NCBI RefSeq assembly: GCF_023051145.1
Contig: NZ_JALKFS010000005.1
Location: 4,791,733-4,855,732 of the forward strand
From: Williamsia sp. DF01-3
GTDB lineage: Bacteria; Actinomycetota; Actinomycetes; Mycobacteriales; Mycobacteriaceae
Length of the DNA stretch: 64,000 bases
Direction of reading: 5' to 3'
Part shown: piece by piece, positions 48,168 through 61,206 of the stretch
Position numbering within the stretch: position 1 is the first letter of the stretch
Layout: every line of letters starts with the position of its first letter
The notes under the pieces: generated by a model
What the model was told of the DNA's origin: nothing
Databases searched by the model: none
What the model saw: only the letters and a program-made list of their open reading frames with translations
Program-made: the position numbers and the translations under genes

Positions 48168-49160
48168 TCAGGAGTTTTCGCGTGCCCTGACGTAGCCGGC
48201 CTGCTTGTCGACCACGTTCATCAGCGGTTCGCCTGCCATGTAGTGCTGCAGGTTCTGCAGGAACTGACCGGCCAGGTCATCGCCCCACCCGACCACATCC
48301 CCGCTCATGTGCGCGGAGATGTGCACGTTCTCCATCTCCCACAGCGGGTTCTCGGCGGGCAGCGGCTCGGTCTCGAACACGTCGAGCGAGGCGGCTCCTA
48401 TCGATCCCGTGCGCAACGCGTCGATGAGCGCCGTCTCGTCGACCAGCTCCCCTCTGCCCACGTTGACCAGGTGCGCGGTCGGTTTCATCGACGCCAGTAC
48501 CGCGGCGTCGATCATGCGGGCGGTCAGAGCAGTGAGCGGTGCGATGGCGACGACCACGTCGAAGTTGCCGACGTAGGAAGTCAGGTCTGCGGTGGCCCGC
48601 ACCACACCGAAGTCGGGGTCGTGCGCACGTTCGGTGCGACCCGCACCGCTTACCTGCAGGCCGGCTGCCCGCAGAAGGCGGGCGGTGGCGCGTCCGATCC
48701 CGCCGGTCCCGATGACAAGCACCGAACGTCCGGCAGTCCGGGTGGTGTCGCGGCGGATCCACCGCTTCTCCCGCTGGAGGGTTTTCGACAGATGCAGCTG
48801 CTTGTCCTCGGCGAGGATCGAGCCGAGGACGAACTCGGCGATGGGCCCGTCGAAGACCCCGTGGGCGTTGGTGACGGTCACGTCCGACCGGCGCACGTCG
48901 TCGAACAGCATGGCGTCGACGCCTGCTGCACAGACATGCACCCACCGGAGGTCATCTGCGGCCGACCAGTTGTCCCGTAAGGCCGCGGAGAAGAAGTCCC
49001 ACAACAGCAGAACGTCGGCACCGTCGAGCGCCTCACCCAGATCTGCGGTGGTGCATTCACGCACGGTCGCGATGTTGCGGATCTGCTCCAGGTTGCTGGG
49101 CGGGGCGAGTCCTTCGCGACCCAGGAGTGCGACCACCGGCGTTGTGTTCGGCGTTGCCAT
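48168..49160 (-). CDS. D-isomer-specific 2-hydroxyacid dehydrogenase, NAD(P)-dependent
   Basis: Reduces 2-oxoacids to D-2-hydroxyacids or the reverse. 330 residues; NAD site VLVIGTGGIGRATARLLRAAGLQV near residue 145, catalytic Arg in APLTALTARMIDA-region/NVGRGELVDETALIDAL, Glu nearby, and catalytic His in VHISAHMSGDV. Substrate unknown; it is closest in look to glyoxylate/hydroxypyruvate reductase-type members. Divergent from the catabolic operon starting at 49247, with the GntR box between them, so it may belong to the same regulon. Confidence 0.9.
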   Translation of the reverse strand: MATPNTTPVVALLGREGLAPPSNLEQIRNIATVRECTTADLGEALDGADVLLLWDFFSAALRDNWSAADDLRWVHVCAAGVDAMLFDDVRRSDVTVTNAHGVFDGPIAEFVLGSILAEDKQLHLSKTLQREKRWIRRDTTRTAGRSVLVIGTGGIGRATARLLRAAGLQVSGAGRTERAHDPDFGVVRATADLTSYVGNFDVVVAIAPLTALTARMIDAAVLASMKPTAHLVNVGRGELVDETALIDALRTGSIGAASLDVFETEPLPAENPLWEMENVHISAHMSGDVVGWGDDLAGQFLQNLQHYMAGEPLMNVVDKQAGYVRARENS

Positions 49161-49207: not shown

Positions 49208-49219
49208 ATTGTTGACAAT
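49208..49219. promoter_or_regulatory. GntR (FadR-type) operator, left end of catabolic locus
   Basis: ATTGT-TG-ACAAT, identical to the core of the site upstream of the gntR gene at 61122–61133. It lies 28 bp before the aminotransferase start, and contains TTGACA (49212–49217), so a bound repressor would overlap a −35 element. It is in the divergent gap with the D-hydroxyacid dehydrogenase gene. Confidence 0.75.
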
Positions 49220-49246
49220 CCATCAATCTGCCGTCACCGTGTACCC

Positions 49247-50509
49247 ATGAGCCGCGCCACCCTCAGCCCTGCCCTGAAACAAGCCACGCCGGTTGTCGTC
49301 GATCACGCGAAGGGGTCGTGGATCCGCGGCACGGACGGTCTCGACTACCTGGACTTCACCACCGGCATCGGCGTCACCAGCACCGGGCACTGCCATCCGA
49401 AAGTGGTTGCCGCAGCCCAGGAACAATGCGGCAAGATCATTCACGCGCAGTACACCACCGTGATGCACAAGCCGCTGCTCGAATTGACCGACAAGCTCGG
49501 TGATCATCTGCCCACCGGGCTCGACTCGGTGTTTTACGCCAACTCCGGATCCGAGGCCGTAGAGGCCGCGGTCCGGCTGGCGCGGATGGCCACAGCGCGA
49601 CCGAACATCGTTGTCTTCCAGGGCGGTTTCCATGGCCGCACCGTCGCTGCCGCGACACTGACCACCGCCGGAACCCGCTTCTCCGCAGGCTTCTCCCCCT
49701 TGATGGGCGGCGTGCACATGGCGCCCTTTCCGTACGCCTACCGGTACGGATGGGACGAGCAGACAGCAGTCGACTTCGCTCTCCGGGAACTCGACTATCT
49801 GTTCGCCTCACGCGTCGCCCCCGATGACACCGCAGCGTTTCTCATCGAACCGGTGCTGGGTGACGGCGGATACCTGCCCACCCCGCCGGCATTCCTCGAG
49901 GGCCTCCGCGAGCGCGCCGATCGATACGGCATCGTCCTCATCCTCGACGAGGTCCAGGCAGGCGTCGGGCGCACCGGTAAGTTCTGGGGGCATCAGCACA
50001 CCGACGGCCTGATTCCCGACATCCTCATCACAGCCAAGGGCATCGCCTCCGGGTTCCCGATCTCGGCCATCGCCGCAGCCCGCGACCTGATGGCGAAGGC
50101 GTGGCCGGGTTCCCAGGGCGGCACCTATGGCGGCAATGCGGTCGCCGCGGCCGCAGGCGTCGCGACGCTGGAGGTGATCGCCGAGGAGAACCTCGTCGAC
50201 AACGCGCGCATCCGGGGCGACCAGATGCTCCGCGGACTGGCCGAGCTGGCTCCGAAGTTCCCGCAGATCGGCAACGTCCGCGGGATCGGTCTCATGGCCG
50301 GCATCGAGTTCGTCGACGATGCGGGCGCGCCCGACAGTGTTTCGGCAGCCGCCGTGCAGCAAGCGTGCATACCCGAGAAGCTGCTGACGCTGACGTGTGG
50401 ACCGATGGGCAACGTTGTTCGCCTCATCCCCGCACTGGTGATCTCAGAAGACGAAATGGCCACGGGTCTGAACAGATTCGAGGCCGCCTTGACCGCGGCA
50501 CTGGGATAG
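49247..50509 (+). CDS. Class III aminotransferase (omega-amino acid / diaminobutyrate type)
   Basis: PLP enzyme of 420 residues that moves a terminal amino group to 2-oxoglutarate or pyruvate, making a semialdehyde. Motifs: GTDGLDYLDFTTGIGVTSTGH, YANSGSEAVEAAVRLAR, GGFHGRT, LILDEVQAGVGRTGKFWG and the PLP lysine in ILITAKGIASGFPISA. First gene of a six-gene operon; 8 bp separates it from the next. In ectoine degradation this would be the DoeD step (diaminobutyrate to aspartate semialdehyde); a 4-aminobutyrate role is the alternative. ATG 49247 is chosen over the upstream frame because the conserved domain begins there. Confidence 0.92.
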   Translation: MSRATLSPALKQATPVVVDHAKGSWIRGTDGLDYLDFTTGIGVTSTGHCHPKVVAAAQEQCGKIIHAQYTTVMHKPLLELTDKLGDHLPTGLDSVFYANSGSEAVEAAVRLARMATARPNIVVFQGGFHGRTVAAATLTTAGTRFSAGFSPLMGGVHMAPFPYAYRYGWDEQTAVDFALRELDYLFASRVAPDDTAAFLIEPVLGDGGYLPTPPAFLEGLRERADRYGIVLILDEVQAGVGRTGKFWGHQHTDGLIPDILITAKGIASGFPISAIAAARDLMAKAWPGSQGGTYGGNAVAAAAGVATLEVIAEENLVDNARIRGDQMLRGLAELAPKFPQIGNVRGIGLMAGIEFVDDAGAPDSVSAAAVQQACIPEKLLTLTCGPMGNVVRLIPALVISEDEMATGLNRFEAALTAALG

Positions 50510-50517
50510 CGGGGGTG

Positions 50518-53496
50518 ATGGACCCCGAACTGTCCGGCTCCCGTGTCGCCGCTGATCTACAAGCGCTCGGGCTGAGCGCCGACGCCTCGTCTCGCCGTCT
50601 CACCGAATACTCCTACGACGCCTCGAACTACCGACTCAAGCCCCTCACGGTGGTCTTCCCTCGGGACGATCGCGAGGTGGCTGCGGTGGCCGCCTACTGC
50701 CACCGGCATCACCTGACGCTCACCGCCCGCGGTGGCGGAACGGGCATGGGCGGCAACGCGATCGGGACCGGCGTGGTGCTGGACTTCTCCCGGCACATGA
50801 ACAGACTCATCTCCGTCGATCCGCACGGCAGGACGGCGGTGGCGCAGGCCGGCATGGTGCTCACCACCCTGCAGCACCAGGTCGCGGCCCAGACAGACGG
50901 TGAACTGACCTTTGCACCGGACCCCTCGAGCCAGTCCCGGGCAACCCTCGGCGGGGCCATCGGCAACGACGCATGCGGCAACCACTCGGTGCGCCACGGG
51001 CGCACCACCGACCACGTCGAGGCACTGAACCTGGTCACGGCCGATGGACTGCGCCTCACCGCATTCCGAGACGGGTTGAGCGCAACCGACCCCTCCGACA
51101 CCGAAGCGGTGGCCCGGGCAGCCCAACTGAGTGCGGCGATGCGCGAGCTCACGGCGGCGAACATGGCCATCCTGCGAACCGAGATGGACCGGATCCCACG
51201 CCAGGTGTCCGGCTACCACCTCGGTAAGTTGCTGCCCGAAAACGGTTTTGATGTGGCCCGCGCCCTGGTCGGCACCGAAGGCACCTGCGCGATCGTGGTC
51301 TCGGCCACCGTTCGTCTCGTGCCCGCGCCCACCAGCGCGCTTCTCCTCTGTCTCGGCTACCGCAACGTGGTGGACGCCGCCCGCGACGTACCGACCCTGC
51401 TCGAGTTCAAGCCCTCGGCCATCGAAGGTATCGACGAGCGCATCGTCGAGACGATGCAAGCGCGTCGAGGCGATGACTCGGTGGTGGGTCTGCCACAGGG
51501 AAATGCCTGGCTGTACGTGGATCTCGACGAAGAGAGCAGCTCGAACGTGCCTCAGGCGGCGCAGGACCTTCTCGACAAGCTCTACACAAACGGTCGACTG
51601 GTGGACGGCCGGACCGTGCCCGACCGGCAGCAACGGGTCTCGCTGTGGCGTATCCGCGAGGACGGTGCCGGATTGTCGTCACGGCTGGTGGCACCGCAGC
51701 AGGTGAACCCCGAAGACGGTGGCGACGGCGGCAGCTACGAATCCTGGCCCGGCTGGGAGGATTCGGCCGTTGCCCCCGAAAGGCTGGCCGACTATCTGGA
51801 AGGGTTCACCGCACTGCTCGATCACCACGGACTGACCGGTGTCATGTACGGACACTTCGGCGCCGGGTGCATGCATGTCCGGATCACCTTCGACCTCCGC
51901 AGTACGCATGGCCGAGCGGTGATGAGGAAGTTCTGTCGTGACGCCGCCGAACTCGTTGTGCGTCATGGTGGCTCGCTGTCGGGCGAACACGGCGATGGCC
52001 GGGCCCGCTCGGAGCTGTTGCCCCTGATGTACTCGCCCCAGATGATCGAGGCCTTCGGTGCCTTCAAGCGCATCTGGGATCCGGCAGGCATCCTCAACCC
52101 CGGCAGCATCGTCGATCCGGACCCCATCGATGCGAATCTTGTGCTCGCCGGTGTGCCCAGTCGCGTATGGCGAACCAGTTTTGATCTCGGCACGCCCGGG
52201 ACGCGGGACGATGGGCAGCCGGGCCTCGACCCCTTTGTGCACGCCGTCCAGGGGTGTATCGGTGTCGGTCGCTGCCGATCGGATTCGGGTGGCGTGATGT
52301 GCCCCAGCTATCGCGCCACCCGCGACGAGAAGGACTCCACGCGCGGCCGGGCCCGCGTCCTGCAAGAGATGGTGCGCACGGCACCCGACATCGAATCAGG
52401 CTGGCGCGACGAGGATTCTCGCGAAGCCCTCGACCTGTGCTTGTCATGCAAGGCGTGTTCGACCGATTGCCCGGTGGGCGTCGACATGGCCACGTACAAG
52501 TCCGAGTTCTTCTCCAACTACTACCGGCGGCGCCTGCGACCACTGTCGCATTATTCGCTCGGATGGATGCCTGCCTGGCTCGGCGCCGCCACGGCTCTGG
52601 CCCCCGTCATCAACAGGATGCTGGCGGGCCGCCTCGCCGGTCCCGCATCCCGGGCCGGCGGGCTTGATCCGCGACGCACCATGCCCGCCTTCGCCACCCG
52701 CACACAGGTGCACACCGCGATGGCCGGTCTACGCACCGACCCGGCGTCCGACGTGGTGCTGTTCGTCGACTCGTTCACCAAGGCGTTCCGGCCACACGTC
52801 GCCGGTGCCGCGGCGCGGGTCCTGGAATCGGGAGGCCAGACCGTGAGCTGTTCGGCCGACCAATGTTGCGCGCTCACGTGGATCTCCACCGGGCAACTCG
52901 ATCACGCGCGAAAGGTGCTGATCCGTACCGCCGCTGCTCTCGACGACGGCACCGACCGGCCGATTGTGGTGCCCGAACCGAGCTGCGCCGCAGCACTGCG
53001 CAAGGACCTCCCGGAGTTGGTGCACAGCGAGGTCGCCCGCCGGGTGGCTTCACGGGTTCGGAGTTTCGCCGACGAGGTGGGCCATCTACTCGACGACGGG
53101 TGGGAACCACCCGTGCCGTTGCCCGCGGACGTCGTCGTGCAGACCCACTGCCACGAGTACTCGGCGTTCGGGCCCACCGTGCAGCAATCGGTTCTGCGCA
53201 GACTCGGGGCGACCAAGGTCGAGCAGGCCGACGGATGCTGCGGTGTGGCAGGCAATTTCGGCTTCGAAAAAGGTCACTACGACGTCAGCATGGGCGTGGC
53301 CGAACAGGCGCTCGCCCCAGCGCTGCGTGCCCGGGACCAATCCACACCGGTCCTCACCGACGGATTCAGCTGTGCGATGGCCGTTTCGCACCTCTCTGCC
53401 ACCGACGACACCGTGCCTGCCGTCGAATCGGTCCACCTGGCCGAATTACTCGACCCGGCGCAATCATCCGAGACCACCAAGGAGGTTCGACCATGA
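50518..53496 (+). CDS. FAD-linked and Fe-S D-2-hydroxyacid dehydrogenase (YdiJ/GlcD–GlcF fusion type)
   Basis: 992-residue oxidoreductase: FAD-binding type 4 domain (TARGGGTGMGGNAIGTGVVLD, residues about 75–95), FAD-oxidase C-domain (GEHGDGRARSELLPLMYSP), a two-cluster ferredoxin part (CIGVGRCRSDSGGVMCPSYR; CLSCKACSTDCPVGVDMATYK), and C-terminal CCG domains (CCALTW, DGCCGVAGNFGF). The layout and length match E. coli YdiJ, a D-2-hydroxyglutarate dehydrogenase. Substrate here is unknown. Starts ATG 50518 and overlaps the next gene by ATGA. It is not part of known ectoine pathways, which makes it the odd member of the operon. Confidence 0.92.
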   Translation: MDPELSGSRVAADLQALGLSADASSRRLTEYSYDASNYRLKPLTVVFPRDDREVAAVAAYCHRHHLTLTARGGGTGMGGNAIGTGVVLDFSRHMNRLISVDPHGRTAVAQAGMVLTTLQHQVAAQTDGELTFAPDPSSQSRATLGGAIGNDACGNHSVRHGRTTDHVEALNLVTADGLRLTAFRDGLSATDPSDTEAVARAAQLSAAMRELTAANMAILRTEMDRIPRQVSGYHLGKLLPENGFDVARALVGTEGTCAIVVSATVRLVPAPTSALLLCLGYRNVVDAARDVPTLLEFKPSAIEGIDERIVETMQARRGDDSVVGLPQGNAWLYVDLDEESSSNVPQAAQDLLDKLYTNGRLVDGRTVPDRQQRVSLWRIREDGAGLSSRLVAPQQVNPEDGGDGGSYESWPGWEDSAVAPERLADYLEGFTALLDHHGLTGVMYGHFGAGCMHVRITFDLRSTHGRAVMRKFCRDAAELVVRHGGSLSGEHGDGRARSELLPLMYSPQMIEAFGAFKRIWDPAGILNPGSIVDPDPIDANLVLAGVPSRVWRTSFDLGTPGTRDDGQPGLDPFVHAVQGCIGVGRCRSDSGGVMCPSYRATRDEKDSTRGRARVLQEMVRTAPDIESGWRDEDSREALDLCLSCKACSTDCPVGVDMATYKSEFFSNYYRRRLRPLSHYSLGWMPAWLGAATALAPVINRMLAGRLAGPASRAGGLDPRRTMPAFATRTQVHTAMAGLRTDPASDVVLFVDSFTKAFRPHVAGAAARVLESGGQTVSCSADQCCALTWISTGQLDHARKVLIRTAAALDDGTDRPIVVPEPSCAAALRKDLPELVHSEVARRVASRVRSFADEVGHLLDDGWEPPVPLPADVVVQTHCHEYSAFGPTVQQSVLRRLGATKVEQADGCCGVAGNFGFEKGHYDVSMGVAEQALAPALRARDQSTPVLTDGFSCAMAVSHLSATDDTVPAVESVHLAELLDPAQSSETTKEVRP

Positions 53497-55001
53497 CGAC
53501 ATCCACCGAAACACCACCCGCCGCTCAGAACACCGAACGGCGTACCAGGGCAGCCGAGCTGATCGCTTCACTGCCCAGCGGCCTGTACATCGGCGGCGAA
53601 TGGGGCCAAGCAGCAGACGGCGCCACCTTCGCGGTCGAGAACCCCGCCACCGGTGAGGTCGTCGCCCACGTCGCCAAGGGTGCACAGGCCGATGCCGCTG
53701 CGGCCATCGAGTCGGCCGCGGCCACCCAGAAGAGCTGGGCAGCAACACCGCCGCGCGCACGCAGCGACATCCTCCGCCGGGCATACGAATTGATCCTCGA
53801 ACGACAGGAGGATCTGGCGCTGATCATGACCACCGAGATGGGCAAGCCTCTGGCCGAGGCGCGAGGTGAAGTGGCCTATGGCGCAGAGTTCTTCCGGTGG
53901 TTCTCCGAAGAGGCGGTCCGCATCGACGGTGGTCACACCACCACCGGCGACGGTGCAAACCGCATCCTGGTGACGAAGGAACCGGTGGGACCATGCATCC
54001 TCATCACCCCGTGGAACTTCCCACTGGCGATGGGCACCCGCAAGATCGGGCCTGCGATCGCAGCCGGCTGCACCATGGTGTTCAAGCCTGCCGAACTCAC
54101 CCCGCTCACAACGCTTGCCCTCACCGAGATCCTCACACTCGCCGGCTTGCCTGCCGGTGTGCTGAACGTGGTCACCACCGACGACCCCGGTTCCGTGGTG
54201 GAGACCTGGATGGACAGCGGCCTGGCCCGCAAGGTCAGCTTCACCGGTTCCACCCAGGTCGGAAAGTTGCTGCTGGAGCAGGCATCTCGGACCGTGATGC
54301 GCACATCGATGGAACTGGGCGGCAACGCACCGTTCATCGTCTGCCCCGATGCCGACCTCGACAAGGCCGTCGGCGGCGCAATCGTCGCCAAGATGCGCAA
54401 CATGGGTGAGGCCTGCACGGCGGCCAACCGGATGTTCGTGCATCGCAGCGTGGCCGACGAGTTCGCCACGAAGCTGGCCGAACGGATGGGCGCGTTGAAC
54501 GTCGGTGACGGCGTGGACGAGGGCACCCATGTGGGGCCGCTCGTCGAGCGCAAGGCCGTCGACAAGGTCCGCACCCTGGTCTCGGACGCCGTCGAACGAG
54601 GGGCCACCGTGGTGGTGGGCGGTCAAGAGGGCGCTGATGCCGGCTACTTCTATCAGCCGACGGTGCTTTCGGGCGTTGACCCGCAGTCCGAGCTGATGGG
54701 CACCGAGATCTTCGGGCCGGTGGCACCGGTCATCCCCTACGACACCGAAGAGGAGGTGATCGAGATGGCCAACAACACTCCCTGGGGTTTGGTCGGCTAT
54801 CTGTTCACCCAAGACGTCGATCGTGGACTGCGGATGTCGTCGGCACTCGAAGTCGGAATGGTGGGCCTCAACACAGGTTTGGTCTCCAACCCTGCAGCAC
54901 CCTTCGGTGGGGTGAAACAATCCGGATTGGGCCGCGAAGGCGGCCGGGTCGGGATCGAGGAGTTCCTCGAGATCAAGTATCTCGCCATACCGAGGACCTG
55001 A
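53493..55001 (+). CDS. NAD(P)-dependent succinate/aspartate-semialdehyde dehydrogenase
   Basis: Aldehyde dehydrogenase of 502 residues that oxidises a short-chain semialdehyde to the acid. Catalytic Glu in MRTSMELGGNAPF, catalytic Cys in MGEACTAANRMFVH, Asn in ITPWNFPLAMGTRKIGPAIA, and NAD pocket SFTGSTQVGKLL. Closest in look to GabD-type SSADH, the group to which DoeC (aspartate-semialdehyde dehydrogenase of ectoine catabolism) also belongs. Start ATG 53493 overlaps the preceding stop; GGAGG precedes it by 8 nt. It would oxidise the product of the class III aminotransferase. Confidence 0.94.
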   Translation: MTTSTETPPAAQNTERRTRAAELIASLPSGLYIGGEWGQAADGATFAVENPATGEVVAHVAKGAQADAAAAIESAAATQKSWAATPPRARSDILRRAYELILERQEDLALIMTTEMGKPLAEARGEVAYGAEFFRWFSEEAVRIDGGHTTTGDGANRILVTKEPVGPCILITPWNFPLAMGTRKIGPAIAAGCTMVFKPAELTPLTTLALTEILTLAGLPAGVLNVVTTDDPGSVVETWMDSGLARKVSFTGSTQVGKLLLEQASRTVMRTSMELGGNAPFIVCPDADLDKAVGGAIVAKMRNMGEACTAANRMFVHRSVADEFATKLAERMGALNVGDGVDEGTHVGPLVERKAVDKVRTLVSDAVERGATVVVGGQEGADAGYFYQPTVLSGVDPQSELMGTEIFGPVAPVIPYDTEEEVIEMANNTPWGLVGYLFTQDVDRGLRMSSALEVGMVGLNTGLVSNPAAPFGGVKQSGLGREGGRVGIEEFLEIKYLAIPRT

Positions 55002-55050
55002 TCAGACCGGCAACATCGCGAACATTCACCGAAAGGTGTGAGGACACAGT

Positions 55051-56244
55051 ATGTATCTCGGATCGCAGCTGTTCACCGACGCCGAATACGAGCAGCGGCT
55101 GGCGGCTGTCCGCAAGGTGATGGACCGGCAGGGGCTGTCGGCGATCATCGTCACGGACCCGGCCAACATCTTCTATCTCATCGGGTACAACGCGTGGTCC
55201 TTCTACACCCCACAGATGTTGTTCGTTCCGATGGACGGCGACATGGTCTTCTTCGCGCGCGACATGGACGCTCGGGGTGCGCATCGCACCACCTGGCTGC
55301 CCGACGAGCAGATCGTCGGCTATCCCGAGAGCTACATCCACAGGCCCCACGTGCATCCGTTCGATTGGGTGGCATTCGCTTTGCGGCAACGCCATCTGAT
55401 CGCGCCGGCGTCGCGAGGTGGCTCCGTCGGCTTGGAGATGGACTCGCACTTCTTCTCCCCCAAGGCGTATCGGGCGCTGTTCAACGCGATCCCGGAGTGG
55501 AAGCTGGTGGACTGCTTCGAGCTCGTGAACTGGGTGAGGTCCGTCAAGTCGGACGCCGAGGTTCAGCTGATGCGGCAGGCGGGCATGGTGTGCTCGGAGG
55601 CGATGCGCGCGGCCATCGACACCATCGACATCGGGGTGCGGCAGTGTGATGCCGCAGCGGCGATCTCGCAGGCGCAGATCACCGGTACCGATCAATTCGG
55701 CGGCGACTACCCGGCCATTGTGCCGATGATGCCGACGGGCGAAGCAGCCGACACTCCCCATCTCACTTGGCATCAGGGCACTTTCGTCGGCGGTGAGGCA
55801 GTGGTGGTCGAGCTGACGGGCGCCCACAACCGCTACCACTGCCCTCTCGCCCGCACCGTGTCACTCGGACCGGTGAACAAGGATGTCGACTACGTTGCCG
55901 GAGCCACCGCAGAGGGCCTCAACAACGTTCTCGACGCCATCGCACCGGGGGTACCGACGCGGGAGCTCGCTTCCACGTGGAACTGGACCCTGGCCAAGTA
56001 CGGACTCGAAAAGCCATCCCGGCTCGGCTATTCGATCGGTATCGGCTACCCACCCGACTGGGGTGAGCGCACCATCAGCATCCGGACCGAGGACGAGACG
56101 ATCCTCGAGGAGAACATGACATTTCACATCGTGTGTGGAATGTGGATGGACGGCTACGGATTCGAGTTGTCCGAGTCGGTGCGGGTGAGCGCGACCGGGG
56201 TCGAGACGTTCACCAGCTTTCCGCGAGACCTGATCCGCAAGTGA
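55051..56244 (+). CDS. doeA: M24 pita-bread hydrolase, ectoine hydrolase (DoeA/EutD)-like
   Basis: 397 residues: creatinase N-terminal domain (1 to about 165) and M24 catalytic domain. It has the hallmark text I know from EutD/DoeA: TDPANIFYLIGYNAWSFY, GGDYPAIVPMMPTG, APHLTW-like DTPHLTWHQG, HNRYHCPLARTVSLG and GYSIGIGYPPDWGERTISIR. The two Asp metal ligands of true aminopeptidases (DxGAxxxxYxSD) are replaced here by ELTGAHNRYHCPLAR, as in DoeA and creatinase, so it is a metal-independent amidohydrolase rather than a peptidase. DoeA opens the ectoine ring to N-acetyl-diaminobutyrate. Creatinase is the main alternative. RBS GAAAGGTGTGAGGAC precedes ATG 55051. Confidence 0.82.
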   Translation: MYLGSQLFTDAEYEQRLAAVRKVMDRQGLSAIIVTDPANIFYLIGYNAWSFYTPQMLFVPMDGDMVFFARDMDARGAHRTTWLPDEQIVGYPESYIHRPHVHPFDWVAFALRQRHLIAPASRGGSVGLEMDSHFFSPKAYRALFNAIPEWKLVDCFELVNWVRSVKSDAEVQLMRQAGMVCSEAMRAAIDTIDIGVRQCDAAAAISQAQITGTDQFGGDYPAIVPMMPTGEAADTPHLTWHQGTFVGGEAVVVELTGAHNRYHCPLARTVSLGPVNKDVDYVAGATAEGLNNVLDAIAPGVPTRELASTWNWTLAKYGLEKPSRLGYSIGIGYPPDWGERTISIRTEDETILEENMTFHIVCGMWMDGYGFELSESVRVSATGVETFTSFPRDLIRK

Positions 56245-56270
56245 CCTGATGAGAAGTGAGAGGTGACCGC

Positions 56271-57500
56271 ATGACCGCAACCGATCTGTCCCACTCCAGC
56301 CGCACCTTCCCGCTGGCCGGCCGGGCCAAAGATCTGGTCGGGTCGATGATCGACTCGTCGACGTCGCTGCTCGCCACGCAGAAGCACGACATCGTCCGCT
56401 TCGCGATGGGTTCGCCCGCCGACGAAGCGGTACCCGCCGACGAGTTCCGCGAGATAGCCGGCAGCATCCTCGACCACACGTCGTTCACCTACGGCGCTTC
56501 CGAGGGCGAGCCGCGCCTGCTCGATCTACTGGTCAAATACCTTGCCGGCACACCTGATCCGGCCTCCGAGGATCGGCTCGTCATCACCACCGGCGGTATG
56601 CAGGGACTCGATCTGGCCTGCAAGTTGTTCGTCGACCCCGGCGATCTGGTGATCGTCGAGTCGCCCACGTACACCAACGGAAGCGCCACCGCCCTGTCGT
56701 ACGGGGCTCAGCTACTCGAGGTGCCGGTGGACGACGAGGGACTCATGGTGGACCAGCTTCCGGATCTGGTCGCGCGAACTCATCGAACCCCCAAGGCCAT
56801 CTACACCATCCCCAACTTCCAGAACCCGAGTGGCGTCACCTTGTCGCTGGAACGGCGAATCGCGTTGCTGGAGTTGGCCCACAAGTGGGGCGCGGTCATC
56901 ATCGACGACGATCCGTACGCACTGCTGCGGTTCTCCGGCGAGGACATCCCCACGTTCCGGACCCTGAGTCCCGATGACCCACTGCTCTTTTCGGTGCGCA
57001 CGTTCTCGAAGATCCTGGCGCCGGGATGGCGCGTCGGATGGGTGGACGCCGACCCCGCTCTGCGGCAACTGCTGATCAACGGCAAGCAGGCGATGGACAC
57101 ATGTACCAACGTGCCCAACCAGCACATCGTGGCCGAGTACATCTCGCGTGGCGGGTTGGAGGACCATCTGGTGATGCTCCGCGACCTGTACCGCATTCGT
57201 CGGGACGCGATGATCGCCTCTCTGCAGACACATCTGGGCGATGAGGTGGCCACCACACATCCCGAGGGTGGCTTCTTCCTCTGGGTGACATTGCAAGGGA
57301 AGTATGCCGGTATCGACACCCGCGAGCTGTTCGAGATCGCCCTGGCCGAAGGTGTTGCGTTCATTCCGGGGCCGGCGCTGTCGCCCGGTGGCCACTACCG
57401 CAACGCGCTGCGGCTGTGCTTTGCATCCAGCACACCCGACCGCATCGACGAGGGTGTGAAGCGGCTGCGAACCGCACTGGATCTGGCACTGGCGGCATGA
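56271..57500 (+). CDS. Class I/II aminotransferase (2-aminoadipate/MocR-type catalytic domain)
   Basis: 409-residue fold-type I PLP enzyme: YGASEGEPRLLDLLVKYL, TTGGMQGLDLACKLFVDPGD, PNFQNPSGVTLSLERR, DDDPYALLRF, and PLP lysine in VRTFSKILAPGWRVGWV. It resembles LysN-type 2-aminoadipate transaminases and the effector domain of MocR regulators, but carries no DNA-binding domain. In Proteobacteria the ectoine regulator EnuR is a MocR protein; here a free-standing enzyme occupies its place. A likely role is transamination of aspartate or another alpha-amino product. RBS AGAGGTG; overlaps the next gene by ATGA. Confidence 0.9.
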   Translation: MTATDLSHSSRTFPLAGRAKDLVGSMIDSSTSLLATQKHDIVRFAMGSPADEAVPADEFREIAGSILDHTSFTYGASEGEPRLLDLLVKYLAGTPDPASEDRLVITTGGMQGLDLACKLFVDPGDLVIVESPTYTNGSATALSYGAQLLEVPVDDEGLMVDQLPDLVARTHRTPKAIYTIPNFQNPSGVTLSLERRIALLELAHKWGAVIIDDDPYALLRFSGEDIPTFRTLSPDDPLLFSVRTFSKILAPGWRVGWVDADPALRQLLINGKQAMDTCTNVPNQHIVAEYISRGGLEDHLVMLRDLYRIRRDAMIASLQTHLGDEVATTHPEGGFFLWVTLQGKYAGIDTRELFEIALAEGVAFIPGPALSPGGHYRNALRLCFASSTPDRIDEGVKRLRTALDLALAA

Positions 57501-58672
57501 CCGAACGGTCTGTTCTCGAGCTGATCGACGAGCCTGAGTTGGTGGCACTGACCTGCTCGCTCATCGACGCGGGCGGCGAGAATCCCGGCGGTACCGAGCA
57601 ACAGACGGTCCAGATACTCCACAAGGCCTGTCACGAACTCGGTTTCATCGTCGACAGCTGGGGGGTGGCCCCCGGCAGACCGAACTTCACTGCGACACTC
57701 CCCGGCACCGGCAACGCACCCGGCCTCATGGTCCTCGGCCATTCGGACGTGGTACCTGCCGGTGACGGGTGGACACGCGATCCGTTCGAATCCACGGTCG
57801 ACGCGGGGCGGATCTTCGGTCGCGGCGCCACCGACATGAAGGGTGGCCTCGCGGCGGCAATCATCGCGATGGCGGCCTTGTCGCGGTCGGGGGTGGCACT
57901 ACCCGGGCCCGTCCAATTGGTCTGCACCGTCGACGAGGAAGACCTCGGCATCGGCATCCGCGATTTTGTGACCCGGAGCGATGGATCGTATCGATTCGCC
58001 GGTTGTGTGGTCGCCGAACCGACTGACCTCGAAACCGTGATCGCTTGTCGCGGAGCCTCTTACCTCGAGGTTCGGGTGACCGGGCGGGCCGCACATTCGG
58101 GTCGCCCGGCAGATGGCCGCAACGCCATCGACGCTGCCGCCGCGATCATCGACCTCGTCCGCGCCGACGCCCGCCGACTTGCGCGCTCACCGGACCCGCT
58201 TCTGGGCTCGGGAACCTGGAACACCGGGCTGATCGAAGGCGGGCAGGGCATCTCGGTGGTCGCACCGCATGCGACCGTCAGCTTCGACCGCCGGCTGATG
58301 CCCGGGGAAGACGCCTACGCTGTGGCGTCCTGGTTACGCGGCGCGATCACCGAAGCGGGCATCGACAGCGACGGCATCACAGTGGACGTCGAGGTGACGA
58401 TGTCGATGCCGGGATTCCAGACCACCATCGACCACCCATTGGTCACCGAGGCCGCTCGTGCCGTCGGCGACGCCGGTGGCCATACCGAGATCACAGGCTG
58501 GACCGCCGCGTGCGACGGCGGCTTCATCAGCCGGGACCTCGGGATCCCCGCCATCGTCCTGGGCCCGGGTGGTCTCAACGATCAGGCACACCGCCCGGAT
58601 GAATCGGTCTCGATACACGAATTGGTCACCGCTGCAAAGGCTTACGCACTGCTGGCGCTGCGCCTGCTCTGA
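57497..58672 (+). CDS. M20-family deacylase (ArgE/DapE-like)
   Basis: Zinc-dependent amidohydrolase of 391 residues. Metal residues in order: GHSDVVPAGDGW (His, Asp), GRGATDMKGGLAA (bridging Asp), VDEEDLGIG (Glu base and ligand), CVVAEPTDLE (Asp/Glu), and the final His in LNDQAHRPDESVSIHELV; dimerisation lid with RGASYLEVRVTGRAAHSGRP. Family members remove N-acetyl or N-succinyl groups from amino acids. In this operon it would deacetylate N-acetyl-diaminobutyrate, replacing DoeB/EutE, which is a different (AstE/aspartoacylase) family. Last gene of the operon, followed by a large hairpin. Confidence 0.93.
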   Translation: MTERSVLELIDEPELVALTCSLIDAGGENPGGTEQQTVQILHKACHELGFIVDSWGVAPGRPNFTATLPGTGNAPGLMVLGHSDVVPAGDGWTRDPFESTVDAGRIFGRGATDMKGGLAAAIIAMAALSRSGVALPGPVQLVCTVDEEDLGIGIRDFVTRSDGSYRFAGCVVAEPTDLETVIACRGASYLEVRVTGRAAHSGRPADGRNAIDAAAAIIDLVRADARRLARSPDPLLGSGTWNTGLIEGGQGISVVAPHATVSFDRRLMPGEDAYAVASWLRGAITEAGIDSDGITVDVEVTMSMPGFQTTIDHPLVTEAARAVGDAGGHTEITGWTAACDGGFISRDLGIPAIVLGPGGLNDQAHRPDESVSIHELVTAAKAYALLALRLL

Positions 58673-58684
58673 CCGGCAAGCGGT

Positions 58685-58753
58685 CACGATCGTCCCCGTG
58701 GACGCCGTCCGAGGGCGAATAGCCGTCGACGGCGTCCCACGGGCCCGATCGTG
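58685..58753. terminator. Large bidirectional terminator between converging operons
   Basis: CACGATCG…GTGGACGCCGTC (from 58685) pairs with GACGGCGTCCCAC…CGATCGTG (to 58753), a stem of about 20 bp with small bulges. It starts 12 nt after the M20 gene stop and ends 5 nt before the transporter gene stop. Confidence 0.85.
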
Positions 58754-58758
58754 GTGCG

Positions 58759-60147
58759 TCAGCTGTTGTGCACCAACTTCTTCTCGGCGTCGGTTTCCTC
58801 ACCGGGGATGTCGGTGCCCCGAATCGAGAAGCCTGCCGTCTCGCGCAGGAAGGGCAGCGCGATCATGCCGATCACGCAGGCGAGCATCATGTAGCCGGCC
58901 GGGAACAACTCCCAACCCTCGTTCTCGGTGACCGCGTCGTTGATCAGCGGCGCCGTGCCTCCGAACGCCGCCGTGGCCACGTTGTAGGAGATGGCGAACC
59001 CGGCGTACCGCACCTGCGTGGGGAACATGGCCGGGAACGTTGCCGAGATGGTCGACAGCTGCGGGATGTACAGCAGCCCCAGCACCAGGAATCCGACGAT
59101 GGCCCAGCCGAAGCCCTGCCCCATCAGCCAGTACATCGGCAACGCGAACACGAACAGACCGATCAGCGAACCCCACCACATCGGTTTGCGGCCGATCTTG
59201 TCCGACCAGGCACCGAAGAACGGGATACACGCCATCATTGCCAGCTCGCCGATGAGGATGACAACCGTGCCGGTGGTCTCGCTCATTCCGATGGTGGTCT
59301 TGAGGTACGTCGGCTGATATGCCAGCAACGTGTAGTTGGCCACGTTGAGGGCGATCACCAGGCCGAACATCACCAGGATGGGCTGCCAGTAGTTGGTGAG
59401 CAAATCCTTGAACCGCGTCCACGCGGTGCCCTCGATCTCATCCTTCTGCTCGAGTTCCTTGAAAACCGGTGTGTCTTCCATCTGATTTCGCAGGTACAGA
59501 CCCACCAGACCCAATGGCAACGCGAGCAGGAACGGGATGCGCCAGCCCCAGGTCTCCATCTGTTGGTCGCTGAGCGCCAGTTCGAGCAGCAGCACGATGG
59601 CGGTGCCCATCACGAACCCGGCGAGTGTGCCGAACTCGAGGAAGCTTCCATACCGGCCGCGCTTCTTGTCCGGCGCGTATTCGGCCATGAACGTTGCCGC
59701 TCCGCCGTATTCGCCTCCGGTGGAGAATCCCTGGACCACCCGCAGTGCGATCAACAGGATCGGCGCCCATACACCGGCGACCGCATGCGTGGGCAGCAGT
59801 CCGATGAGGGCGGTGGCGCCCGAGATGAGCAAAATGGTCATGGCCAGCACGGCTTTTCGGCCGATCCGGTCTCCGATCGGACCCCAGATCATGCCGCCGA
59901 GCGGTCGGAGCACAAAGGAGATCGCAAATCCCAGCATCGTGCCGATGGTCCCGAGGTCGCCGGGAAAGAAAGCTTGCGTGAGATAAGTCGTGGTGGCGGC
60001 GTAGACGCCGTAGTCGTACCACTCGGTCGCGTTGCCGATGGCGGATGCGCCGATGGCCTTGCGTAAGAGCTTCTTGCCTTCCGGTGAATCCGGATCCGGA
60101 AATCCTGGTGCAATGTCTGAATTCGATTTCGCGATGTTCGGGCTCAT
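58759..60147 (-). CDS. MHS-family proton symporter (ProP-like)
   Basis: Major-facilitator transporter of the metabolite:H+ symporter family, 462 residues from ATG 60147 (GAAGGGGG site upstream; the longer frame to 60198 lacks one). Helix text and motifs: AIGNATEWYDYGVYA at the start, GPIGDRIGRKAVLAMTI (motif A), GVWAPILLIALRVVQGFSTGGEYGGAATFMAEY, and GAWSDKIGRKPMWW in the second half. MHS members carry ectoine/proline/betaine, dicarboxylates or aromatic acids. It is co-directional with gntR, 151 bp downstream, and probably imports the substrate of the facing operon. Confidence 0.93.
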   Translation of the reverse strand: MSPNIAKSNSDIAPGFPDPDSPEGKKLLRKAIGASAIGNATEWYDYGVYAATTTYLTQAFFPGDLGTIGTMLGFAISFVLRPLGGMIWGPIGDRIGRKAVLAMTILLISGATALIGLLPTHAVAGVWAPILLIALRVVQGFSTGGEYGGAATFMAEYAPDKKRGRYGSFLEFGTLAGFVMGTAIVLLLELALSDQQMETWGWRIPFLLALPLGLVGLYLRNQMEDTPVFKELEQKDEIEGTAWTRFKDLLTNYWQPILVMFGLVIALNVANYTLLAYQPTYLKTTIGMSETTGTVVILIGELAMMACIPFFGAWSDKIGRKPMWWGSLIGLFVFALPMYWLMGQGFGWAIVGFLVLGLLYIPQLSTISATFPAMFPTQVRYAGFAISYNVATAAFGGTAPLINDAVTENEGWELFPAGYMMLACVIGMIALPFLRETAGFSIRGTDIPGEETDAEKKLVHNS

Positions 60148-60298
60148 TGATACCCCCTTCAACTGAAGACGTCGGGCTCTGGTGTCTTCGAGGCCCACAG
60201 ATTCCTGCTACTTCCGCGTTTTGAAAGCAGGTGACTAGGCGTTTGTCGGTGCAGGCCTCCTCGAGGATGGTGGCCGCGGCAGGTTGCCGAAGCCCGTT

Positions 60299-61081
60299 CT
60301 ATCTTCCCGATGCCGGTCGGTCGACGGGCACGTTCGGACTCGACGTTATCGCTGCGCCACCGAATTGAGATACGGCACCCGGTTCGGCGATGATTCGACG
60401 CAACCCGTCCCGCATGTGGTCGACCATCAGTTCGTCGGCCGATTTTGTGTCCCGCTGGGCAATTGCCGCGACGATGCGGCGGTGTTCGGAGATCCGCTCT
60501 TCGGCGGATACGTAGGTGCCTCGCATGGCCCCCAGACACATCCGTGTCTCGACGAGAATGGTCTCGTGAAGTCGCGAGAGCCGGGGGCTACCGGCGAGTT
60601 CTACGAGTTCGTGGTGAAATGCCATGTCCGCGTCCGCAATCTGCGGACCGTTGGGGTCGTCCGCGTGCCGCTCCATCTCCTCGACTGCGGCGGTGAGGAC
60701 GTCGACGGCGTCGTCGGGGCGGCGCAGGATCACCTGTTCGAGTGCTGCGCGCTCAACCGCGGCTCGGGCGACGTACATGTCCCTGATGTCGTCGTCGTCC
60801 ATGGTGATCACGAACAGACCGCGGTTCCGGTAGCTGACCAGCAGCCCTTCCTGCGTCAACCTCTGCATGGCCTCACGCAGTGGTCCGCGGCTGACGCCCA
60901 GATCGGCCGCCAGGCCCGATTCGGTCAGTTGCGAACCGGGAGGAAAGTCGCCTTTGGCGATGGCTGCACGCAGTTGGCGGGCGATGATGGCCGGAGTCGA
61001 CTCCTGGACCAGGGGTTCGAGCACCCGAGATCTGGCCACGCGCCCGCGGGCACCGCCTGACTTCTTGATCTCATCGGACAT
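60299..61081 (-). CDS. GntR-family repressor with FCD effector domain (FadR subfamily)
   Basis: 260 residues: winged helix (IARQLRAAIAKGDFPPGSQLTESGLAADLGVSRGPLREAMQRLTQEGLLV over residues about 33–83) and an all-helical FCD domain with metal/ligand residues in MAFHHELVELAGSPRL and EHRRIVAAIAQRD. FCD regulators bind a carboxylate effector. A perfect TAGATTGT-TG-ACAATCTA palindrome upstream, shared in core form with the aminotransferase promoter, identifies the probable regulon: itself, the transporter and the six-gene catabolic operon. Confidence 0.94.
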   Translation of the reverse strand: MSDEIKKSGGARGRVARSRVLEPLVQESTPAIIARQLRAAIAKGDFPPGSQLTESGLAADLGVSRGPLREAMQRLTQEGLLVSYRNRGLFVITMDDDDIRDMYVARAAVERAALEQVILRRPDDAVDVLTAAVEEMERHADDPNGPQIADADMAFHHELVELAGSPRLSRLHETILVETRMCLGAMRGTYVSAEERISEHRRIVAAIAQRDTKSADELMVDHMRDGLRRIIAEPGAVSQFGGAAITSSPNVPVDRPASGR

Positions 61082-61118
61082 GAGTCACCGCACCCAAACC
61101 CCTCGCGTTCCGTCTTCG

Positions 61119-61136
61119 TAGATTGTTGACAATCTA
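61119..61136. promoter_or_regulatory. GntR operator, right end of catabolic locus
   Basis: TAGATTGT-TG-ACAATCTA, a perfect 8-bp inverted repeat 38 bp before the gntR start. The inner 12 bp equal the site at 49208–49219. It fits known FCD-family sites of the TTGTnnACAA form. Confidence 0.8.
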
Positions 61137-61206
61137 CCGCACAAGCGGACTCATACAACCTGCCTGCCGGCTTTTGCCTGCGACGGGAACACCCGGGTCG
61201 GGTCAT

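Follow-up and report, generated by a model that had tools for sequence, protein, structure and literature searches.

The window analysed here is a stretch of 64,000 nucleotides from Williamsia sp. DF01-3 (4.79-4.86 Mb of its contig, in a genome of 5.59 Mb that is 98.9% complete), and it carries a gene cluster around a DoeA/EutD-like ectoine hydrolase. We propose that this locus is an ectoine-catabolism regulon run by its own FCD-domain GntR regulator via TTGTTGACAA operators, and that ectoine is broken down there via a detour through 2-hydroxy acids to D-malate and oxaloacetate; the probability of this joint reading is put at about 0.55. Ectoine as the substrate of the regulon is well supported and in our judgement very likely. 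The proposal builds on the gene set, its conservation, the operator sites, the family assignments and the linkage to ectoine genes in relatives, each of which was observed directly. The features of the locus are as follows.

48168-49160, minus strand: D-2-hydroxyacid dehydrogenase (2-Hacid_dh; called HADH here), divergent from the operon; PF02826, 159.7 bits
49208-49219, no strand: operator copy 1, ATTGTTGACAAT, in the divergent promoter shared by HADH and AT3; one of two exact genomic copies
49247-50509, plus strand: class III aminotransferase, GabT-like (AT3); PF00202, 373.5 bits
50518-53496, plus strand: YdiJ-type FAD/Fe-S D-2-hydroxyacid dehydrogenase; PF02913, PF01565 and PF13183
53493-55001, plus strand: GabD-like aldehyde dehydrogenase of the succinate-semialdehyde dehydrogenase (SSADH) type; TIGR01780, 588.9 bits (cut-off 646.35)
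55051-56244, plus strand: DoeA/EutD-like ectoine hydrolase, M24 fold; TIGR02993, 408.6 bits (cut-off 613)
56271-57500, plus strand: class I/II aminotransferase (AT1); PF00155, 112.7 bits
57497-58672, plus strand: M20 deacylase of the ArgE/DapE family; TIGR01910, 227 bits (above the cut-off of 217.6)
58759-60198, minus strand: MHS-family transporter, ProP-like, a candidate ectoine importer; NF007927 (ProP), 390 bits (below the cut-off of 544)
60299-61081, minus strand: FCD-domain GntR regulator; PF07729 and PF00392, both above cut-offs
61118-61137, no strand: operator copy 2, GTAGATTGTTGACAATCTAC, an inverted repeat with 9-bp arms and a 2-bp spacer, 5′ of the GntR gene

All six genes of the plus-strand operon are intact and stand in the order AT3–YdiJ–SSADH–DoeA-like–AT1–M20; the MHS transporter and the GntR regulator are encoded opposite to them on the minus strand. 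The gaps are 8 bp (AT3/YdiJ), -4 (YdiJ/SSADH), 49 (SSADH/DoeA-like), 26 (DoeA-like/AT1) and -4 (AT1/M20), lengths that depend on the start codons of AT3, YdiJ, SSADH and AT1 chosen in the present analysis. A preliminary description of this DNA, made from the letters alone, had reported such a tight operon with gaps of -4 to 49 bp, and its genes were found to be present, intact and in the order given, the YdiJ-type dehydrogenase among them; its inventory was accurate in what it listed, but it had overlooked AT1 and the divergent HADH. The closest named relatives are strains of Williamsia muralis, in which the DoeA-like protein is 100% identical. A locus titled Kitasatospora arboriphila NRRL B-24581 (L063) encodes nine proteins 96-100% identical to those of the window, and that genome is probably a mislabelled Williamsia.

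To begin with the regulatory sites, the 5.59-Mb genome contains just two copies of the 12-mer ATTGTTGACAAT, one at the HADH/AT3 promoter and one, within GTAGATTGTTGACAATCTAC, at the GntR promoter, and the reversed control gave no copy. The regulon with two promoters linked to a GntR protein, as first suggested, is upheld; the ends of the stretch marked out in the preliminary description (49208 and 61136) coincide, within one base, with these two inverted-repeat copies, which were found independently. Two positions of the window carry the pattern TTGT-N(1-3)-ACAA: 49209, in the HADH/AT3 intergenic region, and 61123, 5′ of the GntR gene, where it forms the core of the 20-bp inverted repeat. A survey of the named actinobacterial loci L062-L118 (L123 was left out) gave 124 occurrences of the pattern in 51 of 57 loci, as compared with 15 and 6 for two control patterns, and none of the 124 fell within stretches recognised as searched genes. 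They were found at most 300 bp upstream of AT3, HADH, DoeA and GntR as well as of linked amidase, EutA-like and EhuB genes; because close relatives are among the loci, these occurrences are not independent events. The regulator has both the helix-turn-helix and the FCD domain of an FCD-type GntR protein, and the inverted repeat is found at its own promoter and at the target promoter. It is from the position of the sites that the GntR protein is predicted to bind the TTGTTGACAA operators. In a further locus (L189, G028:C33), HADH and a YdiJ-AT1-M20 group are present with an operator between HADH and YdiJ, and DoeA, AT3 and SSADH are absent there.

The hydrolase was compared with solved structures. 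The DoeA structures 6twk and 6twj matched the window M24 protein at an E-value of about 1e-100; a Xaa-Pro peptidase or prolidase was rejected, with prolidases scoring 6e-19 or weaker, and so was a creatinase, at 1.4e-5 or weaker. On these scores the protein groups with DoeA rather than with those two families, as the earlier interpretation had required, though it falls short of the curated DoeA cut-off. Across 35 DoeA-type rows of the alignment, 71 positions are identical, 9 of which are absent from five M24 outgroup rows. A conserved glutamate, residue 254 of the window protein, may be catalytic. When a tree was built after removal of the short paralogs L003 and L005, the window protein fell in a solid clade of 21 rows with support of 100/100, which also takes in DoeA-like proteins of Brevibacterium species other than B. 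epidermidis. The backbone of the tree is a polytomy with no clean order of subclades, and the distant M24 paralogs L169 and L171 lie inside it. A second kind of actinobacterial EutD, 56-62% identical to Leisingera EutD and separate from the window clade, was seen in L057-L061, with eutB or eutC nearby in four of these five loci.

The window cluster itself contains no Ehu or ect gene; the linkage to ectoine comes from relatives. In Glaciibacter (L105), one cluster comprises, in this order, an amidase gene, AT3-YdiJ-SSADH-GntR, DoeA-AT1-M20-HADH, EutA-like sequence and EhuB-EhuC-EhuD-EhuA, the four Ehu proteins all scoring above their curated cut-offs for ectoine transporters (258 against 191, 230 against 197, 244 against 205 and 366 against 345 bits, respectively). 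A tblastn comparison showed Homoserinimonas L107 to be laid out in the same way, and in both loci the operator lies upstream of EhuB. EhuA was likewise found in Arthrobacter L092, with 376 bits (cut-off 345). In a genus here designated g6, ectC is located 11-14 kb from the DoeA gene in at least 10 of 11 DoeA-positive genomes (the eleventh being G128), and ectA is about 4-5 kb from AT3 in all four loci fetched; since helicase, glyoxalase and PfkB genes lie in between (L148), this is a shared neighbourhood and not one operon. HADH adjoins ectD in two of the three genomes fetched from genus g4 (L163 and L164, not L165), and L164 encodes EctD (348 bits, cut-off 336.5), EhuB, EhuC and EhuD above their cut-offs and EhuA at 337 bits, just below 345.4. 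Co-occurrence with ectoine genes or a shared operator was thus found in L105, L107, L092, L163, L164 and g6, and the idea of ectoine or ectoine-like catabolism in the preliminary description is supported by this linkage and by the DoeA structure matches. The term EutA-like denotes similarity only: the L161 copy scored 90 of 318 bits for EutA and 93 of 225 for arylmalonate decarboxylase, and the two EutA-like proteins of L105 matched no NCBIfam family at 1e-30. In the source genome, ectABC lies 2.1 Mb from the window and an Ehu-like operon without the operator lies 0.3 Mb away, its EhuB scoring 197 bits (cut-off 190.9). Brevibacterium epidermidis can metabolise ectoine, as a passage in a review states (PMC1224877), a genus linked to the present system through the DoeA-like proteins of its other species. 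Two side observations concern ect genes. In L157:1-9747 (G177, without DoeA match), ectA and ectB are at most about 7 kb from an MHS gene (67% to that of the window) and a YdiJ relative (64%). In L148:5378-7276, EctA and EctB stand in one unbroken frame and both exceed curated cut-offs, which suggests that genus g6 carries a fused EctAB protein.

The remaining enzymes were compared with those of the proteobacterial pathway and other references. The nearest solved chain to AT3 is the 4-aminobutyrate aminotransferase 1sf2 (285 bits), and AT3 is 38% identical (272 bits) to E. coli GabT versus 29% (134 bits) to Leisingera DoeD/atf; in the tree the two form separate clades, with long-branch warnings, AT3 lying outside the DoeD clade, so it does not qualify as a DoeD-type enzyme. 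SSADH is 49.0% identical to GabD and 48.8% to Leisingera ssd (DoeC), and its nearest structures are succinate-semialdehyde dehydrogenases. The YdiJ-type protein scored 421 bits with NF049975, below the cut-off of 1350 for this D-2-hydroxyglutarate dehydrogenase family, and is 27% identical to E. coli YdiJ; HADH scored 198 bits with NF041369 (cut-off 400). AT1 corresponds to a MocR-like aminotransferase domain lacking the helix-turn-helix, and among the solved structures closest to it are those of a multiple-substrate aminotransferase and of 2-aminoadipate aminotransferase. The M20 protein exceeded the cut-off of its ArgE/DapE deacylase family. No match to PF04952, the family of the AstE/AspA-type deacetylases DoeB/EutE, was obtained in the whole genome, with a control search positive in one of 14 control genomes, that of E. 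coli, and the cluster holds neither a MocR-type EnuR nor an AsnC-type DoeX, its regulator being the FCD-GntR protein. A variant without DoeB and EnuR, as had been suspected, is what was found.

To see how far the gene set extends, loci were sampled from actinobacterial genomes. With an E-value limit of 1e-60, a DoeA-like gene was found in 35 of the 201 family genomes and in 13 of 396 genomes drawn across the phylum. The locus sample covered 80 of 110 confirmed loci, with 58 having a DoeA-like match of at least 60% identity and 51 of these having enough flank; many species among the 51 are closely related. Within these 51 loci, DoeA-like was accompanied by AT1 in 46, M20 in 48, YdiJ in 44, SSADH in 43, AT3 in 42, HADH in 41, and MHS and GntR in 37 each. 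The set was found again in Gordonia, Williamsia, Arthrobacter and others, including the first two genera in which recurrence had been anticipated. Arthrobacter (e.g., L092-L094) has it divided into HADH-DoeA-AT1-M20 and a divergent AT3-YdiJ-SSADH. A further 16 loci, each containing a YdiJ relative, were taken from genomes without a DoeA match at 1e-60. HADH, AT3, YdiJ and SSADH occurred together in six of them (L152, L158, L161 and L163-L165), an amidase gene being present in five of these six, and a partial set was found in three (L156, L157 and L159). The loci with the four genes plus amidase (L158, L161 and L163-L165) have EutA-like genes in L158 and L161, EctD in L163 and L164 and Ehu genes in L164; they possibly represent a DoeA-independent route for ectoine or acetyl-diaminobutyrate.

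From these assignments a route may be assembled, its substrate and every reaction past ring opening being deduced from sequence comparison. Ectoine would be taken up by the MHS importer, or by an Ehu-type ABC system encoded outside this locus, after which the DoeA-like enzyme would open its ring to give N-gamma-acetyl-diaminobutyrate (N-gamma-acetyl-DABA). AT1 would then take off the alpha-amino group to yield 4-acetamido-2-oxobutanoate, HADH would reduce this to D-4-acetamido-2-hydroxybutanoate, and the M20 enzyme would release acetate, leaving 4-amino-2-hydroxybutanoate, the 2-hydroxy derivative of 4-aminobutyrate (GABA). The GabT-like AT3 would convert the latter to malate semialdehyde, the GabD-like SSADH would convert the semialdehyde to D-malate, and YdiJ would oxidise D-malate to oxaloacetate. 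The first three of these six steps may run in a different order, and if the N-alpha isomer were the main product of the hydrolase, deacetylation would have to precede the other steps. The detour is proposed because a route to aspartate would leave AT1, HADH and YdiJ idle, because AT3 is GabT-like, because alpha-deaminating genes are found near DoeA elsewhere, and because DoeB does not accept the gamma isomer. According to passages of one study, Halomonas DoeA yields N-alpha- and N-gamma-acetyl-DABA at 2:1, DoeB cannot use the latter, and Halomonas presumably reconverts this isomer to ectoine (PMC3187862). HADH and YdiJ, both D-2-hydroxyacid enzymes, would otherwise be a futile pair; in the detour they would flank the AT3 and SSADH steps. 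Passages of a second study state that Pseudomonas, yeast and human D-2-hydroxyglutarate dehydrogenases do oxidise D-malate (PMC9504171).

DoeA loci outside the Actinomycetota were also compared. Seventeen Desulfobacterota-type loci were covered, most of them on draft or metagenome contigs and with gene families checked in L121, L135 and L136 only. The gene just 5′ of DoeA belonged to the glutamate-dehydrogenase family in six and encoded a class I/II aminotransferase from a different subfamily in nine (15 of 17 together), and no DoeB match was found in any of the 17. Neither deaminating gene was present in seven proteobacterial eut-type loci, apart from MocR-type regulators with an aminotransferase domain. 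In L135 (Desulfuromonadales), proteins 57% identical to AT3 and 45% identical to HADH of the window are encoded upstream of DoeA, and the best match of this HADH in the source genome was the window HADH (235 bits, next 107). In 9 of the 17 loci (L119-L121, L126, L128, L131, L136, L137 and L141; family checked in L121), the genes for the deaminating enzyme and DoeA are preceded by one for a PanB-like (ketopantoate hydroxymethyltransferase) protein. Eight haloarchaeal loci, seven of them from 18 haloarchaeal records listed and two on one plasmid, had near DoeA an HADH in six, YdiJ in four, M20 in six and a glutamate-dehydrogenase-family gene in three; the only long match of the haloarchaeal YdiJ in the source genome was the window YdiJ (347 bits, next 80). 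Taken jointly, these data lead us to suggest, tentatively and at a little under even odds, that a second ectoine route bypassing DABA and aspartate is spread over Actinomycetota, Desulfobacterota and haloarchaea, in which a transaminase or dehydrogenase would begin by removing the alpha-amino group to give 4-acetamido-2-oxobutanoate, the keto group would be masked as a D-hydroxyl, GABA-shunt-like chemistry on 2-hydroxy-GABA would lead to D-malate, and an FAD dehydrogenase would restore oxaloacetate. Hydroxyectoine could join this route at 4-acetamido-2-oxobutanoate through EutB, which is homologous to threonine dehydratase and might form that 2-oxo acid by dehydration of N-gamma-acetyl-3-hydroxy-DABA.

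A number of results weigh against the detour and its wider distribution. The hydrolase matches TIGR02993 at an E-value of 2.9e-122, yet remains below the curated cut-off; of the 239 positions that do not vary among four proteobacterial DoeA rows it has 131 in common with them, and it keeps only 49 of the 133 DoeA-specific ones (those not in the outgroups). AT3 and SSADH are absent at the locus of Arthrobacter H14 (L104), Citricoccus loci keep only DoeA, M20 and MHS of the set, and Brevibacterium loci are without most of it. No AT3 ortholog was found in the DoeA-positive genomes G016 (Williamsia sterculiae, L091) and G006, which have ~38% paralogs only, and G006 and G036 gave no YdiJ match at 1e-200. 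YdiJ relatives at that threshold are widespread, being present in 145 of the 201 family genomes, many of them without DoeA, so YdiJ was rejected as a pathway marker; in 7 of the 16 DoeA-less loci it was the only member of the set. The Desulfobacterota-type loci had HADH in 1 of 17, a weak YdiJ match in 1 of 17 and an aldehyde dehydrogenase in none, so that this lineage would need a different ending to the route. For the haloarchaea, orthology of HADH with the window protein was tested and was unsupported, with no reciprocal best match, and the absence of DoeB from all eight loci by search is insecure because Haloprofundus L175 has an annotated gene of the succinylglutamate desuccinylase/aspartoacylase (AstE/AspA) family ~7.7 kb from DoeA. 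The 2:1 ratio in Halomonas implies that the gamma isomer may be a minor product (PMC3187862), and the YdiJ enzymes of E. coli and Pantoea are, in the passages on them, strict for D-2-hydroxyglutarate with no activity on D-malate (PMC9504171), which bears on the last step.

The chief alternative is the chemistry of the preliminary description, in which the M20 enzyme would act after the DoeA-like hydrolase to give DABA, AT3 would serve as DoeD and SSADH as DoeC to reach aspartate, and AT1 would turn aspartate into oxaloacetate with HADH and YdiJ as auxiliaries. The operon offers a plausible enzyme for every step, SSADH resembles DoeC about as much as it does GabD, and the alpha isomer predominates in the product of Halomonas DoeA, as already cited. 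Of the four Brevibacterium loci, three from the same DoeA clade (L108, L111 and L123) encode DoeA with a near-DoeD class III aminotransferase, and an AsnC regulator was verified in L111. Against this, AT3 lies nearer to GabT and outside the DoeD clade, AT1 has no clear part in the chemistry as first drawn, and HADH and YdiJ, although conserved and, in six of the 16 loci without DoeA, found alongside AT3 and SSADH, are left without a role. The chemistry as first drawn is weakly supported, and the pathway as a whole appears doubtful to us, though it deserves more weight than the two readings that follow.

HADH and YdiJ might instead be a redox or detoxification pair acting on 2-oxoglutarate and D-2-hydroxyglutarate in support of the two transaminases, outside the carbon route. 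The strict specificity of E. coli YdiJ (PMC9504171, in part) agrees with this, and so does the match of the window YdiJ to the D-2-hydroxyglutarate dehydrogenase model, below its cut-off as that match is; the net effect would be just NADH oxidation, though, and the operator shared with ectoine transport genes would be left unaccounted for, so we regard such a pair as improbable. About equally improbable is a substrate other than ectoine, for example another cyclic or N-acyl diamino acid. The hydrolase score below the DoeA cut-off, the existence of related gene sets without DoeA and the lack of Ehu and ect genes in the window cluster would fit such a compound, but the clusters of relatives with Ehu genes above cut-offs, the operator 5′ of EhuB and the linkage to ectABC and ectD speak for ectoine.

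The known systems, doeABCD-doeX and eutABCDE-atf-ssd of Halomonas elongata, S. meliloti and R. pomeroyi, have in common with the window a dedicated regulator and genes for a DoeA/EutD-like ring hydrolase, for a deacylase and a class III aminotransferase, and for a dehydrogenase of the SSADH family. Unlike them, the window has an M20 ArgE/DapE deacylase in place of DoeB/EutE, a GabT-like AT3 and an FCD-GntR regulator, lacks EutA/B/C, EnuR and AsnC in its cluster, and has AT1, HADH and YdiJ in addition. Because the tests for DoeB and for a DoeD-type aminotransferase were negative, we file the system as a probable variant of ectoine catabolism instead of assigning it to the doe/eut cluster. NCBIfam DoeA2/DoeB2 (NF038259/NF038260) likewise pair an M24 hydrolase with an M20 deacetylase, but the window M24 protein scored 203 against a cut-off of 575 and NF038260 was not in the best 25 of the 55 families that the window M20 protein matched; no link of DoeA2/DoeB2 with ectoine was found in the open-licence literature. 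GabT and GabD of the GABA shunt are the nearest to AT3 and SSADH among the references compared, whereas in the window these two genes are grouped with those for HADH and YdiJ, and the regulator of the set is ectoine-linked.

As of 2018, a passage in PMC5924519 confined the consumers of ectoine to Proteobacteria, and in 2026 putative Gram-positive and archaeal eutD clusters were proposed (PMC13188858, in part). The passages of the latter work (Boas Lichty et al., 2026) report features like those of the window, namely eutD outside Proteobacteria, an abgB amidohydrolase and the absence of eutE in their Bacillaceae, but their Bacillales clusters differ in being pucR-eutBCD-atf plus abgB-thrA-adh. 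The main text of that paper, figures aside, does not mention hydroxyacid, glutamate dehydrogenase, GntR, Gordonia, Rhodococcus, Arthrobacter or Brevibacterium. Within the open-licence literature, neither 4-amino-2-hydroxybutyrate nor 4-acetamido-2-oxobutanoate was among the ectoine/diaminobutyrate matches listed, no ectoine degradation route with a 2-hydroxyacid dehydrogenase was evident from titles and the opening lines of abstracts, and a search for an ectoine hydrolase or FCD regulator in Gordonia or Williamsia led to passages of PMC6362181 that treat ectoine synthesis only.

Ectoine synthase is encoded in 174 of the 201 family genomes, and the present data indicate that a soil actinobacterium very probably consumes this protectant against salt stress as well, its extra enzymes suggesting a chemistry unlike the proteobacterial route. 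The locus gives a defined, operator-marked actinobacterial regulon, and the proposed route offers a catabolic use for the N-gamma isomer formed by DoeA together with a new series of intermediates. If correct, it would aid the annotation of many genes which are now called Xaa-Pro peptidase, FAD/Fe-S protein and 2-hydroxyacid dehydrogenase.

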